Positions 56,042 through 64,000 of a stretch of DNA of 64,000 nucleotides are shown here, piece after piece. The notes beneath the pieces were generated by a model. The model ran no database searches. It was not told the DNA's origin and was given only the letters and a program-made list of their open reading frames with translations. The stretch lies in assembly GCA_014297435.1 (NCBI GenBank), contig JACOQA010000001.1, positions 215,796 to 279,795 on the forward strand, in the 5' to 3' direction. Origin of the DNA: Candidatus Nanohaloarchaea archaeon. GTDB lineage: Archaea; Nanohalarchaeota; Nanosalinia; Nanosalinales; Nanosalinaceae. The position numbers were made by a program, and so were the translations under genes. Within the stretch, counting starts at the first letter, position 1, and every line of letters starts with the position of its first letter.

Positions 56042-56362
56042 TTAGACCTCTTTAGCTTTCTCTAATGTCTCCTCCAGATCAACGTTCTTCCTTAAACAGA
56101 ACGCCTCAAAGTTTTCCGGTTCGTAAACCAGTTCAAGGGCGTCGGCTTGGAAATAACCGTCCACGTCAGGATCTGTATCGATGATTCGAACACTCATGTA
56201 ATCTTCAGTGGTTTCATCTCTGCCGTAAGGACCATACTTGATGTCCAGCTCCTCAATCCTTCTGAAGGTCTCATCTACGTCGAAGCATAGCTCGTCCTCG
56301 ATTGTTTCGACGTACTCCTGGTTGTTTTCGACCAGTAATTGCTGCATGGAACTCACCTCCAA
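56042..56362 (-). CDS. Hypothetical acidic protein
   Basis: This 106-residue acidic protein has a helical N-terminus (LLVENNQEYVETIEDELCFD) and a mixed C-terminus (LELVYEPENFEAFCLRKNVDLEET). No membrane segment. An AGGTGAG site lies close upstream of the ATG. No family is recognised. It is convergent with the HExxH gene, 54 nt apart, and is downstream of the type I restriction operon on the same strand. Confidence 0.6.
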   Translation of the reverse strand: MEVSSMQQLLVENNQEYVETIEDELCFDVDETFRRIEELDIKYGPYGRDETTEDYMSVRIIDTDPDVDGYFQADALELVYEPENFEAFCLRKNVDLEETLEKAKEV

Positions 56363-56640: not shown

Positions 56641-57357
56641 TTACGATGAAAAGGCATCTAATTTTTCCTTACTGAAGACAAGTTTAGAACTGTTTTCTGA
56701 AAGCCATCTATTTGATTTCTTGTAGTTCGGATATATTTCTCTCACACGGGACCAGAATTTTTCGTTATGATTCTGCTCCTCCAGATGAACTAGTTCATGC
56801 ACTACCACGTATTCTAGGACATGTTCTGGACCTAGAATTAGCCGCCAATTAAAATTGAGGTTTCCTCGGCTTGAACAGCTTCCCCATCTAGTCTCTTGAT
56901 CTCTTATAAATACTCTATCGTATTCCTCAGATACTTGATCCGAATATTTCTCAACTCTTTCCTCAACTATTCTTCGGCACTCCTCCCGCAACAACTTTTC
57001 TAACTGATCCTCTAGAGAGGTTCTATTCACCAAATGTTCGGCGAGATAAACTTTGTCCGAAACTTTGTTCGACCGTCTTTTCTCTATCGTTATCTCTTTT
57101 TTATCACCTAATAACGAGATTTTTCCACCTTCCTCCAAGTTTCTGTCCGGGATCTTTCGCTTAAACCTTAGGAACTCTTTTCTCTTCTTCAAAACCCAAT
57201 CCTTTTTCTTTACAAGAAGGTCTTCAGAGTTCTCTTCAGCTTCTTCAGGGAGAACAACGGTAAAGTTTCCTAGTTTATGGTCAATTCTAGGTCTTGAAGC
57301 CTCTTCACTTACTCGAACCTCATAGGGAACTTTCATTCCTTCAATTTTGGTTTCCAT
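56641..57357 (-). CDS. YgjP-like metallopeptidase in a restriction operon
   Basis: The protein has 238 residues from the ATG at 57357, which lies 17 nt inside hsdR. Signature WGSCSSRGNLNFNWRLILGP, then YVVVHELVHLEEQNHNEKFW (HELVH plus the third His), as in the paralogue at 45284-46000. YgjP/DUF45 genes often follow hsdR in type I restriction operons. Here translation is probably coupled to hsdR. The role may be to process or regulate the restriction complex. Substrate unknown. Confidence 0.9.
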   Translation of the reverse strand: METKIEGMKVPYEVRVSEEASRPRIDHKLGNFTVVLPEEAEENSEDLLVKKKDWVLKKRKEFLRFKRKIPDRNLEEGGKISLLGDKKEITIEKRRSNKVSDKVYLAEHLVNRTSLEDQLEKLLREECRRIVEERVEKYSDQVSEEYDRVFIRDQETRWGSCSSRGNLNFNWRLILGPEHVLEYVVVHELVHLEEQNHNEKFWSRVREIYPNYKKSNRWLSENSSKLVFSKEKLDAFSS

Positions 57358-60337
57358 CTTCCTCACGGTTCTTAAGTATGATATTGACGGTTTCAGTAAG
57401 GAAATCATCTTCCTCCTTTATGACCGCGGTCTTGCTTCGTTCGGAAAGTTCCAAAAGAACTTCTTTCCTTACATCCTTCCTTAGCTTCCTTTCGACCGAT
57501 TTGAAGTCTAAGTGTTTTGTCCGGTCGAAGATATTTCTAGCTATTTCTTCTGATTCTTCCTCTGAAAAACTATCGGAGTAAGCATCCTCAAACAGTTTGA
57601 AAAGGGCGAATGTAACTTTGTCCATGTTTTTCCGATCTTTCTCCGATTCAATCTCTTCCTTCTCTTCCTCAACTTCTTCGTACTTTTCAATTGCTTCTTC
57701 GGAGCTTATTTCATCGTTCTTCCAGTCATTTATAATCTGCTTTACTCTATCGCTCAAGGACTCGAACGCCGGGTTTTGCTGGGCTTTTATCTCAATATTC
57801 TCTTCGAGTACAGCCCCTTCAGCAGCCGCACTGTAGTCGGGGTCTGTATCTTCGACATGCTTTACTTCCGGAGACCCAATTTCGTAGCTCACCTCTTCCT
57901 CTTCAGTATCTATCCTTTCGACTTCCATATGTTTCTCAAGGATCTCTTTCGTTTTTTCACGTACATCGCCTAAAAGCCTTCCTTGTTGCGGTCTAACTCC
58001 TCTCTCCAGTTCTTTAAATTCAAAGTAGATATCGTTTAAAATCTGCCATTTGGTGATAACTTCGTCTTCCCCCAGCTTTTTGTGAGGCTGAACCGACTCG
58101 AAGATATCCTCGGCTTCTGAGAACCTTTCGAGGAAGCATGACGCCATCTCATCGTCTTTTCTCAAGGCTGCGACAGCGGTCTGAACTGTCTCAGGGTCGT
58201 TCCTGAAACGGATGTCGAAGAGATCGATCAGTTCATCGACCAAGTCCAGGAACTCATCAGCCAACTGGTCTGTCTCTTTCAAGCCGTTCTGGATGACTTC
58301 AAACTCTTCGTATTGAAGGGCTTCGTTCGGGTTGTCAAACACTCCTGCGAAGTCTACTATCTCTCCGTTCTGCTTTCCTGCCATCGGTCTGTTCGTTCTG
58401 GCGATAGCCTGAAGCAGGTTGTGGTTGGCTATTGACTTATCCAAGTAGAGTGTTTTGAGTACAGGTGCGTCGAAACCGGTCAAAAGCTTGTCGCATACGA
58501 CAAGAAGCTTTAGCTCGCTTTCCTGCTCTTTAAACTTGTCGACTATATCTCTCTCATCTTCGTCAGAGCGTATATACTTGGTCATGAAGTCTTTGTCATC
58601 TCCATCACCAGATATAATTGCTTCGACCTCGTCTTCATCCCTGTACTTCCTTAATTCATCAGCGTAGAGAGCTGCCGCCTCTCTTGAAGGAGTGACAATC
58701 ATTCCTTTCATTCTGATAGGCTCAACTTTCTCTTCAAAGTGTTCAAGGATCTTTCTAACAACTTTCTCCATCCTAGGTCTTAGCTCTGCGAGATCGGACT
58801 CTTTAACGTATTTTCTGAGAATTTCCTGTTGTTTCTGTAGAGGGAGGTCGCCAAACTCTCCCTCGAACTCTCGATCAAGCATATCTTCGGGAACATCCTC
58901 CCACTCAACACTTTCCCTAGTGAAAGTGACTTCTGTAATAACTCCATCCCTCTGACCTTCCTCGATCGAGTAACGGTGGATGTAGTCCTCGTTTTCAGGG
59001 GAAAATTCTTTGAACGTATTCCTACCTTCTTTCCCATCTTCAACTACGGGTGTACCGGTAAAACCGAAGTAGAATGCTTCAGGGAGGGCGTTCATCAATT
59101 TACTGCCAAGCTTGCCTTCCGTAAAACGGTGAGCTTCGTCAACATAAACTACGGACTCTCCTTCAGGATCTGCTTCAATATTCGAGTCGACGTCTTCAAA
59201 CTTCTGGATCGTGGTCAAAACCAGCTGGTTCTGGTTTTCCTCAAGTATTTTTTCCAGGTCTTTAATGGTATCGGCGACATCGAAGAGAGGGAAGCCTATA
59301 TCATGTAGATCGTCGCTCATCTGTTCCTCCAGCTTCTTTCTGTCGACCACTATAATTTGTTGTCTGTCCTGGACGTTCGGCGACTTCTTCGCTTTATGCG
59401 CCGCAAACATCATGGTAAAAGATTTTCCGGAGCCCTGTGTGTGCCAGACAAGACCTTTCCGTGGTTCACCTTTTCTCAGTCTTTCAACCATCCGGTTTGA
59501 AGCCTGGAACTGCATGTAACGCGGAACAATCTTTCCTTCATCCGAGTAAAACACGTAGTACTTGAAAAGATCCATAAGTTTCTGCGGCTGGAAAAGATCA
59601 GTCATAGCGTCTTGAACCTCTTTCTCCATCTCCCCCTCAAATTCTTCGGATCTCCAAGGGAAGTAGAATTTTTGAGGTGAGTCAGTCGCAGCGTATCTAA
59701 ACCTCATACCATCGCTTACGACGTTGAATAGGTTGGGGACGAACATTCTCTGGGCGTGTTCCTGGTACTGATCCATCTCGTTCATCGCTTTCTGGACGGT
59801 TGAGCTAGGTCCTACGTTCTTCAGTTCGAACTGTACGATAGGAATCCCGTTTACCAGAAGGGTGATGTCGGGTCTGACGGATTTCTTCCTCTCGAACTGG
59901 AACTGGTTGACCGCGACGAAATCGTTCTTCTCCATCAGCTCTTTAGTGTTTCTCTCGTCTTCAGGGAAGTGGATTAGATTAATGTACTCGCTTTTTTCCT
60001 CGCCGTTTTCATCTATCACGGTGTGGCTTACACCGTCTCTCAACTTCTCGTAGAACTCTTCGTTCGCATCTAGAAGGTTTTCGGCACCCATGTTCCTCTT
60101 CAGGTTGTCAACGATCTCTTGGGCGTCCTCCTTCGAAACATTCTGGTTTAACTCGATAATTTTTTCCTTCAGATAGTTCCAGTAAACCGCTTCATCCCTG
60201 CTTCTGTCGTACTTTTCGTCGAGCTGAGATGCGCCCCATTCTCCCTTAGTTTTAGGGTTTCCATAAACGGTCCAGCCAACCTCTTCCAAGTAGTTTAGTA
60301 TCTTCGCTTCAACGCCGCCTTCAGTAGTTTTTTGCAC
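57341..60337 (-). CDS. hsdR: Type I restriction enzyme R subunit (HsdR)
   Basis: The protein has 998 residues from a GTG at 60337. The N-terminal PD-(D/E)xK nuclease is VRPDITLLVNGIPIVQFELKN in pieces: Asp in RPD and Glu-Leu-Lys. The helicase motor has TQGSGKSFTM (Walker A), VDEAHR and GFTGTPV, LLVVCDKLLTGFDAP, and QAIARTNRP (motif VI). The C-terminal ~170 residues are charged and helical. It translocates DNA and cuts it when the complex meets unmodified sites. It is co-transcribed with the upstream DUF2283 gene (11 nt gap). Confidence 0.95.
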   Translation of the reverse strand: MQKTTEGGVEAKILNYLEEVGWTVYGNPKTKGEWGASQLDEKYDRSRDEAVYWNYLKEKIIELNQNVSKEDAQEIVDNLKRNMGAENLLDANEEFYEKLRDGVSHTVIDENGEEKSEYINLIHFPEDERNTKELMEKNDFVAVNQFQFERKKSVRPDITLLVNGIPIVQFELKNVGPSSTVQKAMNEMDQYQEHAQRMFVPNLFNVVSDGMRFRYAATDSPQKFYFPWRSEEFEGEMEKEVQDAMTDLFQPQKLMDLFKYYVFYSDEGKIVPRYMQFQASNRMVERLRKGEPRKGLVWHTQGSGKSFTMMFAAHKAKKSPNVQDRQQIIVVDRKKLEEQMSDDLHDIGFPLFDVADTIKDLEKILEENQNQLVLTTIQKFEDVDSNIEADPEGESVVYVDEAHRFTEGKLGSKLMNALPEAFYFGFTGTPVVEDGKEGRNTFKEFSPENEDYIHRYSIEEGQRDGVITEVTFTRESVEWEDVPEDMLDREFEGEFGDLPLQKQQEILRKYVKESDLAELRPRMEKVVRKILEHFEEKVEPIRMKGMIVTPSREAAALYADELRKYRDEDEVEAIISGDGDDKDFMTKYIRSDEDERDIVDKFKEQESELKLLVVCDKLLTGFDAPVLKTLYLDKSIANHNLLQAIARTNRPMAGKQNGEIVDFAGVFDNPNEALQYEEFEVIQNGLKETDQLADEFLDLVDELIDLFDIRFRNDPETVQTAVAALRKDDEMASCFLERFSEAEDIFESVQPHKKLGEDEVITKWQILNDIYFEFKELERGVRPQQGRLLGDVREKTKEILEKHMEVERIDTEEEEVSYEIGSPEVKHVEDTDPDYSAAAEGAVLEENIEIKAQQNPAFESLSDRVKQIINDWKNDEISSEEAIEKYEEVEEEKEEIESEKDRKNMDKVTFALFKLFEDAYSDSFSEEESEEIARNIFDRTKHLDFKSVERKLRKDVRKEVLLELSERSKTAVIKEEDDFLTETVNIILKNREEDGNQN

Positions 60338-60348
60338 TTAGTAAACAC

Positions 60349-60654
60349 CTATGCTTTGGCGGCAGGATACCGGCTGGAGATAACGCTCTTAGAACTGTCG
60401 ATCTCAAGAACAAGCTCGACCTTAACAACTTCCTTATTCCTGGAGAACTCTATCTCGGCGCTGTCTATATTTTCCAATTCTTCTTTTGAGAGCGGGGTCT
60501 TGTGGGAGGCATCAACAACTTCCAAGCCTAAGAACTCTCCGTCGGAGTCAAGATCAAGTATGAAGCCGTCGAGCTCCAAGTTGGTCTCAAAGTCGTCGAA
60601 ATCTTCTCTTTCAACCACTAGAACATCGATTTCAGGTTTGTAGTCGATAATCAT
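60349..60654 (-). CDS. DUF2283-type small protein
   Basis: This 101-residue acidic protein fits the DUF2283 pattern: YKPEIDVLVVEREDF, then DGFILDLDSDGEFLGLEVVDAS, a beta-rich fold. Such proteins are often encoded beside DUF4258-type proteins as possible toxin-antitoxin pairs. Here it lies between a 96-residue gene and hsdR with gaps of 6 and 11 nt. Finding it inside a restriction operon is unusual. The family call is by signature only. Confidence 0.75.
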   Translation of the reverse strand: MIIDYKPEIDVLVVEREDFDDFETNLELDGFILDLDSDGEFLGLEVVDASHKTPLSKEELENIDSAEIEFSRNKEVVKVELVLEIDSSKSVISSRYPAAKA

Positions 60655-60660
60655 TTTAAT

Positions 60661-60951
60661 TCACGCTCTCCAGATACTCTTCACTAATATTTTGGTGCCT
60701 GGAACATTAAAGTATACCGGGACCTCAACCAGATTTTGTTTTAACTGGATTTTAACACGGTAGCTGTACTTGAAGTTAGGATCGCCTTGGTTGTTTTCTC
60801 TAACCTCCTCGAACTCGCAGCTCAAAATCTTCTCCTTTAGGTTCGAAACATCAACGTTTCTACGTTTTGCCCGCTCAAAAACATGCTGAACCAACTCAAT
60901 CCTCTCCGGATCACCTTCCTCGATTAGATCACAGAGTTCCTCAGGAGTCAT
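60661..60951 (-). CDS. Hypothetical 96-residue protein in restriction operon
   Basis: The protein has an N-terminal helical half (LCDLIEEGDPERIELVQHVFERAKRR) and a C-terminal beta-rich half (YSYRVKIQLKQNLVEVPVYFN, then TKILVKSIWRA). The end with alternating hydrophobic and basic residues resembles DUF4258/RelE-type small toxins, though no signature confirms it. It overlaps the upstream membrane gene by 11 nt and precedes the DUF2283 gene by 6 nt. Confidence 0.6.
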   Translation of the reverse strand: MTPEELCDLIEEGDPERIELVQHVFERAKRRNVDVSNLKEKILSCEFEEVRENNQGDPNFKYSYRVKIQLKQNLVEVPVYFNVPGTKILVKSIWRA

Positions 60952-61711
60952 CTTGATTGACCTCCTTTATTTCCTTCTCGGCTTCCTTTGGCATATCTGA
61001 AAACGAGCTTTTGATAGTATAATTTGATTTTTGAGCGTACTCGATAAGATCCAAAATTTCTTCTTCAGAGGGCTGTTCTACTGATCTAACTTTTGACTTA
61101 AAAATTCGTTTCAGGCCTTCCTCATTTGTAATAGATATCTCTTTCTTGTCCTCGTCAATCTTCCATCCTAAATACTCTTTATCTTCACAAACAACCTTCA
61201 TAGGAAGTTCCATAGCGCTGAGTTTCCCAAAGTAGACTGCTGAAAGCGAAATAGTGAAGAATGGCAGTAAAATAGAAATTAAAGCAAGCGAGAGAACTCC
61301 TTGAAGATAGAGAGTTGCAGGAATATACAGGCTGGATCCTACTACAAACATTAGAGAAATTTTCTGGAATGTAAAGCCAGAACTATCTTTTAGACTAAAT
61401 TCATTGGACATTTTCTTCAATTTTTTCGCGATGTAGTACAAAGCTATTGTGTTAAACAAAGCAAGAAATGCCGGAGCAAAGGAGTTCTCTGCTATCCAGA
61501 TAAGAGAAGAATTATACACGAAAACAGCGACACCAGCAGGAGCGCCTAAAGTCAAAGCCGAGAAAAGAGCACCTTCGATCAAAAAATCATCTTTAGAAAG
61601 ATGCTGAGTTCTTGCATCTGAAATCAAAAAACCAACAAAGTAAACCACAGCAAAACAGAAGGATCCAATGAAGGAAGCTCCAAAGATAAAGTTGAAATTG
61701 TCAAAAATCAT
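60941..61711 (-). CDS. Polytopic membrane protein in restriction operon
   Basis: The protein has 256 residues. About five hydrophobic helices lie in the first ~170 residues (around 9-32, 46-66, 70-95, 119-140 and 143-165), then a soluble C-terminal ~85 residues rich in Glu/Lys. No transporter or enzyme motif is seen. Its ATG overlaps the upstream coiled-coil gene's stop by 4 nt (ATGA), so their translation is coupled. Confidence 0.75.
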   Translation of the reverse strand: MIFDNFNFIFGASFIGSFCFAVVYFVGFLISDARTQHLSKDDFLIEGALFSALTLGAPAGVAVFVYNSSLIWIAENSFAPAFLALFNTIALYYIAKKLKKMSNEFSLKDSSGFTFQKISLMFVVGSSLYIPATLYLQGVLSLALISILLPFFTISLSAVYFGKLSAMELPMKVVCEDKEYLGWKIDEDKKEISITNEEGLKRIFKSKVRSVEQPSEEEILDLIEYAQKSNYTIKSSFSDMPKEAEKEIKEVNQDDS

Positions 61712-62265
61712 TCTTGACTTCCCTCATCCTCTGATTTATCTTCAGAGTTTTCAGACTCAGAAAACCTACCTCTAATTTTCCTGCCTGCAACTCTGAGGCC
61801 TTGCTCAATTTTATCATTAAAGCTCCTGCCAAACATAGCGCCCTGGAACAAGTTGAACGCCAAAAAGCCCAAGCTCAAAAGGCTAACACTGAACCAAAGT
61901 TGATACTTATTCACAGTTTTCTGATAAGAATCAATAAACTGATTATTGACAGTCTCAAACTTCTGATTTAAGATCTGAATTTCTGAAGAAGTCCTATTCA
62001 GCCGATACTCTATCTCCTCAACATCTTTCTTTGTAACATTACCGTTAAGCAATCTCCCATATCTTTCACTTAAATTCTGATTCCTCCGCTCCAACTGATC
62101 AATTTCATTCCTCAACTGCTCGATAGTTTTCTCCTTCTGGTCAATCTCAGCCTCAAGTTCAGGATTCCCAGTATCCATCATACTCGGGATCTGAGCAACT
62201 ACACTCAGCATCATAACCACAAAAATCAAAGATACAACAGCTTCAACAGGATCAGTACCTGCCAT
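61708..62265 (-). CDS. Coiled-coil membrane protein in restriction operon
   Basis: The protein has 185 residues. A membrane helix at about 9-25, a long coiled coil at ~33-105 (KEKTIEQLRNEIDQLERRNQNL), a second membrane helix at ~121-143 (LWFSVSLLSLGFLAFNLF) and an acidic C-terminal tail are visible. The coiled coil should lie outside the cell or in the periplasm-like space if the helices span the membrane. Similar organisation is seen in sensor or scaffold proteins. It follows hsdS by 6 nt. Confidence 0.75.
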   Translation of the reverse strand: MAGTDPVEAVVSLIFVVMMLSVVAQIPSMMDTGNPELEAEIDQKEKTIEQLRNEIDQLERRNQNLSERYGRLLNGNVTKKDVEEIEYRLNRTSSEIQILNQKFETVNNQFIDSYQKTVNKYQLWFSVSLLSLGFLAFNLFQGAMFGRSFNDKIEQGLRVAGRKIRGRFSESENSEDKSEDEGSQE

Positions 62266-62271
62266 AAACTC

Positions 62272-63678
62272 TCAGCCCTCCACCTCCACAACTTCATCCA
62301 AAACCCGTACATCCTCACCGGTACGGACACTCCCAGTCAACAAATCCTGCATAAGGCCTTTCTTCAAACGCTGAAGCTCCTCCTTCTCTTCCTTCTCTCT
62401 TTCAATTTTTTGATCCATTGAGTTGAGAGCGTCAGCTATTTTTCTCTGCTCTTCTATCTTAGGGACGTGGATTTTGAGAGTTTTTTGCTTTGTCAATCCA
62501 ATATAATCTCTCGTGCTCTGCTGGGAGTGCCCAGCCATTTCTTTCTGACAGAAGGAACTTCTGAAGAAATACTTCAGATATTCTGGATCTAGAGTTTCCT
62601 CATCGTTAATTCTGTAATATGTGACCTGAGGGCTTAACATTACTTTTTCTTTGTCTTCAGGCACCCGACCTACTCTCCCCACAGAACCTTTATGAGTCAA
62701 CAGAACATCTCCGGGCTCTGCAAATCCTTTTCTGAGATTTTCATAGGTCTCCTCTGAAATTTTCTTCGCATTTTCCCAATCTACGTGGCTATTCCAAACT
62801 GCGTCAGAAGTCACGAAAGGAATTCCTTCCTCAATGAAGTCTTCAGAAGTTGGATGTCTCTCTCCATGATTTCCATCCATAATTTTCTCTATGACTCCTT
62901 CATCTATCAGATCTCTAACTTGCTTAGAATCCCATTCTTCCGGGTATTTAGCAAATCTGGAATCTTCAAATTCTTCGTGGCTGTAGTATCCTTCTGTGAA
63001 GAGGTCCTGCATCAGGCCTTTCTTGACTCGCTGGGTTTGCTCGATGATTTCCTCCGTCTTACTGATTGCCTGATCCATATTGTAGAGAACAGAGGCGATC
63101 CGCCGCTGCTCATCTTTGGGAGGTAAAGCTACATCTAACTCGTTTCTGAAGACGCTGTAAGGGACTCTTTGTCTCCCAGTTGAACCTCTCATTCGAGAGA
63201 TTGCGTAATCTCTCACGACATAGGAATTTACAAGGTAGAAAAGGTACCATGGTACGAGTTTATCTTGATCTGGCGAAAGCACTATGAACTCTGTTGACCC
63301 TATCCCATATTCTGTGTCTATATCCTCTATGATCGCCCGTTTTCCATTCTCCGTGCAGGGAGTAATTCGTGGAAAAATAACATCATCTTCAGTGAACAAT
63401 TTTCCGCTGTAATCATCAGCATCTCTAATTCCTTCTATCGATGGATAGGGTAACTCTGTTTGTAGGTTATCCATTCCGATGTAGGTAATTTCTCCCTCAG
63501 CATCGTAAGATGGATTGACCTCGAAAATTTTTGTGCCGTCTACAAGAGACCATTCTTCAGCAACATTTTTCCAGACGAAAGAATCTTCCTTTGTCTCAAG
63601 GTCTTTAGATTCCTTCTCTTGATCGGAGCCAGAACTTCCAGAGCCCGAAATATCTCCGAGTGAGGCCTGGTTACTCAT
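62272..63678 (-). CDS. hsdS: Type I restriction enzyme S (specificity) subunit (HsdS)
   Basis: The protein has 468 residues. Two target-recognition domains are each followed by a conserved helix: DEQRRIASVLYNMDQAISKT (about 186-205) and EEQRKIADALNSMDQKIE near 415-435, both ending in KKGLMQDL. The two halves have different sequence, so the DNA target should be bipartite. The N-terminal 30 residues are Ser/Gly/Glu-rich and disordered. The ATG at 63678 overlaps the end of hsdM by 8 nt. Confidence 0.95.
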   Translation of the reverse strand: MSNQASLGDISGSGSSGSDQEKESKDLETKEDSFVWKNVAEEWSLVDGTKIFEVNPSYDAEGEITYIGMDNLQTELPYPSIEGIRDADDYSGKLFTEDDVIFPRITPCTENGKRAIIEDIDTEYGIGSTEFIVLSPDQDKLVPWYLFYLVNSYVVRDYAISRMRGSTGRQRVPYSVFRNELDVALPPKDEQRRIASVLYNMDQAISKTEEIIEQTQRVKKGLMQDLFTEGYYSHEEFEDSRFAKYPEEWDSKQVRDLIDEGVIEKIMDGNHGERHPTSEDFIEEGIPFVTSDAVWNSHVDWENAKKISEETYENLRKGFAEPGDVLLTHKGSVGRVGRVPEDKEKVMLSPQVTYYRINDEETLDPEYLKYFFRSSFCQKEMAGHSQQSTRDYIGLTKQKTLKIHVPKIEEQRKIADALNSMDQKIEREKEEKEELQRLKKGLMQDLLTGSVRTGEDVRVLDEVVEVEG

Positions 63679-64000
63679 AGTTCAAGGCCTCCATGTGTTC
63701 TTGCATCTGGTTTTCGATTTCCTCGCGTTCAGACTGGAGTTGGTGCAGCTTTTCTAGTTCTTCGCTTACTTCTATGTTTTCTTCGGGTTCGGTGGTGTCG
63801 ACGTAGAGGGCGATGTTGAGGTTGTAGTCGTTTTCGCGGATTTCTTCGAGGTCGACTACTCTGGAGACTCGTTCCTCTGTCTCCCAATTCCTGTATTTTT
63901 CTACGATTTCTTTGATTCCGTTTTCTGTGAGTTTGTTTTGGTTGCTGAGTTCTTCGTAGAAGTTTTCGTCGGCTGCGTGGATGAACTGTACCTGTCCTTC
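63671..64000 (-). CDS. hsdM: Type I restriction enzyme M subunit, C-terminal part (HsdM)
   Basis: The last ~109 codons of a larger gene end at TAA 63671 and continue past the right edge. The visible part contains the HsdM C-terminal signature VVDLEEIRENDYNLNIALYVDT, which in the family precedes the end. The remainder is coiled (LHQLQSEREEIENQM). The methylase catalytic core lies outside the window. It heads the type I operon. Confidence 0.88.
   Translation of the reverse strand, partial: EGQVQFIHAADENFYEELSNQNKLTENGIKEIVEKYRNWETEERVSRVVDLEEIRENDYNLNIALYVDTTEPEENIEVSEELEKLHQLQSEREEIENQMQEHMEALNYE

Follow-up and report, generated by a model that had tools for sequence, protein, structure and literature searches.

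In a nanohaloarchaeon, a very small halophilic archaeon, four extra genes separate hsdS from hsdR in a type I restriction–modification operon; two of them encode membrane proteins whose families recur in defense operons of other archaea. The four genes form three modules—a coiled-coil membrane protein (CC), a five-helix membrane protein (TM), and a two-gene pair encoding a 96-residue protein and a DUF2283 protein—and these modules are also found separately and in different combinations. We interpret them as an accessory cassette of separately inherited modules in the hsdS–hsdR slot that would back up or guard restriction, a reading to which we assign a probability of about 0.45. The operon lies at the edge of the analyzed window, a 64,000-nucleotide stretch that forms the terminal part of a 279,795-base contig; the host genome (G000) is 1.0 Mb.

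All genes of the operon are encoded on the minus strand and are transcribed in the order hsdM (cut), hsdS, CC, TM, the 96-residue gene, the DUF2283 gene, hsdR, and a YgjP-like metallopeptidase gene, with successive spacings of −8, +6, −4, −11, +6, +11, and −68 nt. In the preliminary description of this DNA, the hsdS–hsdR interval contained four additional genes spaced by −11 to +11 nt, and both the positions and the compactness hold: CC (185 aa) occupies 61708–62265, TM (256 aa) 60941–61711, the 96-residue gene 60661–60951, and the DUF2283 gene 60349–60654. The longest gap is 11 nt; a promoter within a coding region would still be possible. Hydropathy gives two helices for CC and five for TM, so the earlier claim of two genuine membrane proteins likewise stands.

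Gene identities were assigned from Pfam, PADLOC, and NCBIfam matches. hsdS (62272–63678; 468 aa) has two Methylase_S stretches (Pfam PF01420, 4.4e-22; PADLOC Specificity_I, 2e-72). hsdR (57341–60337; 998 aa, GTG start; TIGR00348, 473 bits) encodes intact nuclease and SF2 motor domains, with HSDR_N at residues 5–223 (4e-33), SWI2_SNF2 at 276–498 (4e-53), a Walker A motif (TQGSGKS), and a PD...E-x-K motif. The YgjP-like (SprT-type) metallopeptidase (56641–57408; Pfam PF01863, 3e-50) retains its HELVH motif, and its gene overlaps hsdR by 68 nt. A YgjP-like gene is found in the equivalent position in haloarchaeal and other archaeal operons; with many of the surveyed operons showing the same pairing, hsdR–YgjP would seem to be a standard component of this type I branch. 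Downstream of the YgjP-like gene lies a 106-aa acidic ORF (56042–56362) without a family match.

hsdM is cut because the window stops at the contig end, where its C-terminal 109 codons remain (63671–64000). A search of the same genome located the first 331 codons at the end of another contig (G000:C12:33605-34590), preceded there by a wHTH gene that overlaps hsdM by 4 nt. The two contigs must therefore join here, and the operon is complete except for about 54 hsdM codons absent between the two contig ends. It unites hsdM, in two pieces across the assembly gap, with hsdS and hsdR, and is probably active. Divergence within it is strongly uneven: relative to genome G019 (L022:13777-15261), HsdM is 95% identical, HsdR 75%, and HsdS about 35%.

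TM gave no match above cut-off to a named family in Pfam, PADLOC, NCBIfam, or PHROGs, and its family was delineated from relatives. G019 and G007, the latter a relative from the host's own order (HsdR 48% identical), encode, between hsdS and hsdR, a polytopic protein with the layout of TM. A survey of hsdR neighborhoods in 394 archaeal genomes added G256, whose slot protein links the others by BLAST. A position-blind profile search of the same 394 genomes yielded two standalone members (G258 and G371), and a second such search, covering 94 genomes from the family of G256, yielded three more. Two of these (G457 and G458) occupy exactly the hsdS–hsdR slot and share one base with hsdS. The third (G418; L138:7096-7956) is 85% identical to the G256 protein, has no hsd genes nearby, and adjoins the oxidoreductase-type gene that in G032 borders an hsd locus; given this neighbor, the locus is a probable relic of a deleted hsd operon.

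The family thus comprises nine members in about 480 archaeal genomes: six in the hsdS–hsdR slot, the probable relic, and the two standalone genes. The six operons come from two families of nanohaloarchaea and from a third, unrelated family of archaea, with the deepest slot members at about 20% identity. Recurrence of one family in one slot in five other genomes argues that the placement of TM is not due to chance, and the expectation that homologues of the membrane genes would be found beside restriction genes in other archaea is borne out. Restricting the count to members found blind to position leaves two of five in the slot plus the relic; the remaining two are standalone. Having no restriction genes nearby, these two members indicate that TM can function without restriction.

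We tested membership of the window protein with TM left out of the profile and with 1000 shuffles confined to 12-residue blocks so that the helix pattern is preserved. TM scored 30.3 bits against a profile of five other members, 19.6 bits against eight, and 15.4 bits against the two nanohaloarchaeal ones; no shuffle in 1000 reached any of these scores, and the best unrelated multi-helix decoy scored 1.8–3.2 bits. Without the nanohaloarchaeal members the score was 9.8 bits, reached by 6 of 1000 shuffles, which marks TM as a divergent member. Its link to the family comes mainly from its relatives in nanohaloarchaea and from its position. Two further candidates were discarded: a G046 match to the TM profile reflected hydrophobic helices only, with no shared architecture, and PomA, from a search of PDB sequences with the TM profile, had an E-value of 1.5 and was not meaningful.

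TM consists of five membrane helices followed by a soluble C-terminal domain of about 90 aa. In G019 the TM protein runs on into a RusA-like nuclease domain (DxDNxxK...DDSQI; Pfam RusA, E 0.045), with a second RusA-like gene adjoining the fused gene; a RusA-like gene (E 0.048) also separates hsdS from TM in G007. Together with a basic loop between helices 3 and 4, the fusion at the G019 C terminus suggests that the C-terminal domain of TM is cytosolic. An SH3/Sm-like barrel was sought in this domain, where TM relatives give weak matches to Hfq (E 0.08) and KOW (E 0.14); an AlphaFold model built from two sequences (pLDDT 44) was too poor for use. The RusA-like genes themselves (L022:9878-11858 and L023:155-1397, both in the hsdS–hsdR slot) have weak Pfam and PHROG matches.

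CC likewise matched no named family above cut-off in the same four libraries. Its layout by hydropathy is a helix at residues 9–27, a coiled coil, a helix at about 122–145, and a basic tail. Two homologues are firm: one from G127, at 53.5 bits against at most 26 for 1000 shuffles, and one from G109, at 43.5 bits against at most 25. Both lie within methyltransferase defense operons. The G127 gene directly follows hsdM, in a type I operon that also encodes a PIN protein and an OLD-like ATPase; the G109 gene (locus L129:4372-11457) overlaps the end of a DUF1156 methylase gene and is followed by ATPase_2 and DUF499 genes. In all three proteins the coiled coil is bounded by two hydrophobic ends and the C-terminal tail is basic; each also has an N-x-T sequon close to its best conserved part, although sequons can arise by chance. 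This combination suggests that the coil lies outside the cell and the tail inside. Coiled-coil matches of CC in Pfam and PADLOC (PbeC, DndD, and others) were driven by composition, and a coiled-coil protein near hsdR in G074 was rejected as a homologue (14.6 bits; 484 of 1000 shuffles equally high). TM and CC occur together in no other genome examined.

The remaining two genes, which the preliminary description had listed beside the membrane genes, proved to be a separate, mobile two-gene module, which recurs alone, in differing contexts, in two related genomes, G025 and G013. The DUF2283 protein scores 23.6 bits against PF10049 (cut-off 23). Judged by its size, its gene order, and a relative of the 96-residue protein that weakly matches DUF4258 (E 0.06), the module is probably a toxin–antitoxin system, with the 96-residue protein as probable toxin-like partner and the DUF2283 protein as probable antitoxin. 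A fold search with a model of the 96-residue protein returned NTF2/cystatin-like curved-sheet matches (Z at most 5.6) and no clear family; RelE/BrnT was not among the matches listed, an absence that carries no weight. The equivalent place in G019 is taken by an MNT–HEPN-like pair, in which the MNT partner alone is matched significantly by Pfam and the second gene is putatively HEPN.

To place the operon in a wider context, we surveyed 41 operons with readable hsdM, hsdS, and hsdR, mostly from archaeal genomes with a few plasmids and one viral contig. Gene calls were made by BLAST to this operon, inserts were ORFs of at least 80 aa, and helices were assigned by a simple hydropathy scan. Inserts were present in 23 of the 41 operons, and 12 carried at least one multi-pass membrane insert (at least two helices). 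Membrane proteins, which the preliminary description had considered unusual in type I operons, are thus regular in the slot, with this operon at the rich end. At least two helices were found in 14 of 63 insert ORFs vs. 31 of 263 flanking ORFs (Fisher P = 0.04). Homologous operons on haloarchaeal plasmids, belonging to the same HsdR branch, are mostly insert-free, hsdS and hsdR usually overlapping, which marks the slot as an optional accessory site. Its contents in other operons include HEPN–MNT pairs, OLD-like ATPases, and PIN-type proteins, all from classes with an established or proposed role as back-up effectors.

Evidence favoring the back-up or guard reading includes recurrence of TM in the slot, CC homologues beside methylases, and an optional slot that hosts known or proposed effector classes. 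With relatives in DNA-methylation defense operons of distant archaea, both membrane proteins look like real, interchangeable parts, and a membrane-located back-up or guard partner would be their most likely role. The cassette would be co-expressed with the restriction enzyme and supply a membrane-located second line, triggered or freed once restriction is blocked or overwhelmed, as in the logic of PrrC and EcoprrI; TM could act as membrane effector or sensor and contact the restriction complex or DNA through its cytosolic domain. Pfam and PADLOC searches recognized no effector, pore, or enzymatic domain in TM or CC, which counts against this reading, as do the two TM members away from restriction genes and the failure to find TM and CC together elsewhere.

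The membrane proteins might instead tether the restriction complex, or a nuclease partner, to the membrane on its cytosolic side, where incoming DNA would be inspected as it enters. The best hint is the RusA-like domain fused or adjacent to TM in G019 and G007: a DNA-acting domain on TM, next to a C-terminal domain predicted to be cytosolic, fits DNA work at the membrane. Yet the RusA matches fall below Pfam's cut-off, the RusA part is absent from the window operon and from the other TM family members, most homologous type I systems work without a membrane protein, and the conserved part of CC, if extracellular as predicted, cannot touch the enzyme; such a tether is a live alternative but, in our view, a less likely one. 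Nor do we favor the view that the junction merely tolerates insertions, with defense-island genes riding the hsd transcript and no joint action with the enzyme. Highly variable slot contents, a rate of multi-pass inserts only about twice that of the flanks, and the solitary occurrence of the 96-residue/DUF2283 pair and of two TM members all suit passengers, as does the low GC content of TM (0.37) and CC (0.40; window average 0.44, SD 0.03), which fits later acquisition. Random insertion is nevertheless an unlikely source of one family in one slot of six operons, the deepest of them at about 20% identity, and hardly accounts for CC beside two kinds of DNA methylase, which leaves the passenger explanation doubtful.

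Accessory genes inside type I operons have precedents. In the rlo/mlo loci of Campylobacter jejuni, extra genes intervene between hsdS and hsdR (and between hsdM and hsdS) within the operon (PMC4619093, PMC5183652); as same-strand ORFs between hsdS and hsdR, the genes described here fit the rlo definition, whereas the named example RloF (DUF262/GmrS) does not belong to a membrane protein family. The prrC gene is embedded in EcoprrI, and its product, freed upon phage attack (PMC3874165, PMC12707154), is thought to act when restriction is blocked; PrrC differs in being an anticodon nuclease, a domain that Pfam, PADLOC, and NCBIfam searches did not find in TM or CC. The HEPN–MNT and DUF4258-like/DUF2283 pairs, which are toxin–antitoxin-like, are two-gene mobile modules of the same slot, unrelated to both membrane proteins. 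Accessory genes in the type I slot are known; the two membrane families lie outside the named families of the libraries searched.

A further link runs to the DUF499/DUF1156 loci, presented in the available text of PMC12839542 as BREX-related defense systems. Their core machinery differs, but in G109 the CC homologue sits between the DUF1156 methylase and the ATPase and DUF499 genes. That available text describes no CC-type membrane component and uses the word "membrane" once; the G109 coiled-coil protein is possibly an unreported membrane part of such a system. A more general scheme, in which archaeal restriction and BREX-related systems share a five-helix anchor with a cytosolic domain and an outward-facing, receptor-like coiled-coil protein that couple restriction to the envelope—through inspection at entry or membrane killing upon failure—seems to us improbable and is offered as speculation.

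To our knowledge, restriction enzymes are regarded as soluble, stand-alone machines. That TM has retained its place in the operon at about 20% identity in nanohaloarchaea and an unrelated family of archaea, and that CC is shared by type I and DUF499/DUF1156 loci, suggests a membrane connection for part of DNA restriction in archaea.

CC and the 96-residue protein had no match in viral scans, and plasmid tblastn with the TM, CC, RusA-like, and 96-residue proteins gave none. HsdR scans identified one locus among genome contigs and, among viruses, one distant, insert-free operon. The hsdM–hsdS junction can also host membrane proteins: two archaeal type I operons (L087 and L082) carry eight-helix ORFs of 293 and 317 aa there, the eight-helix protein being weakly rhomboid-like (Pfam E 0.055).
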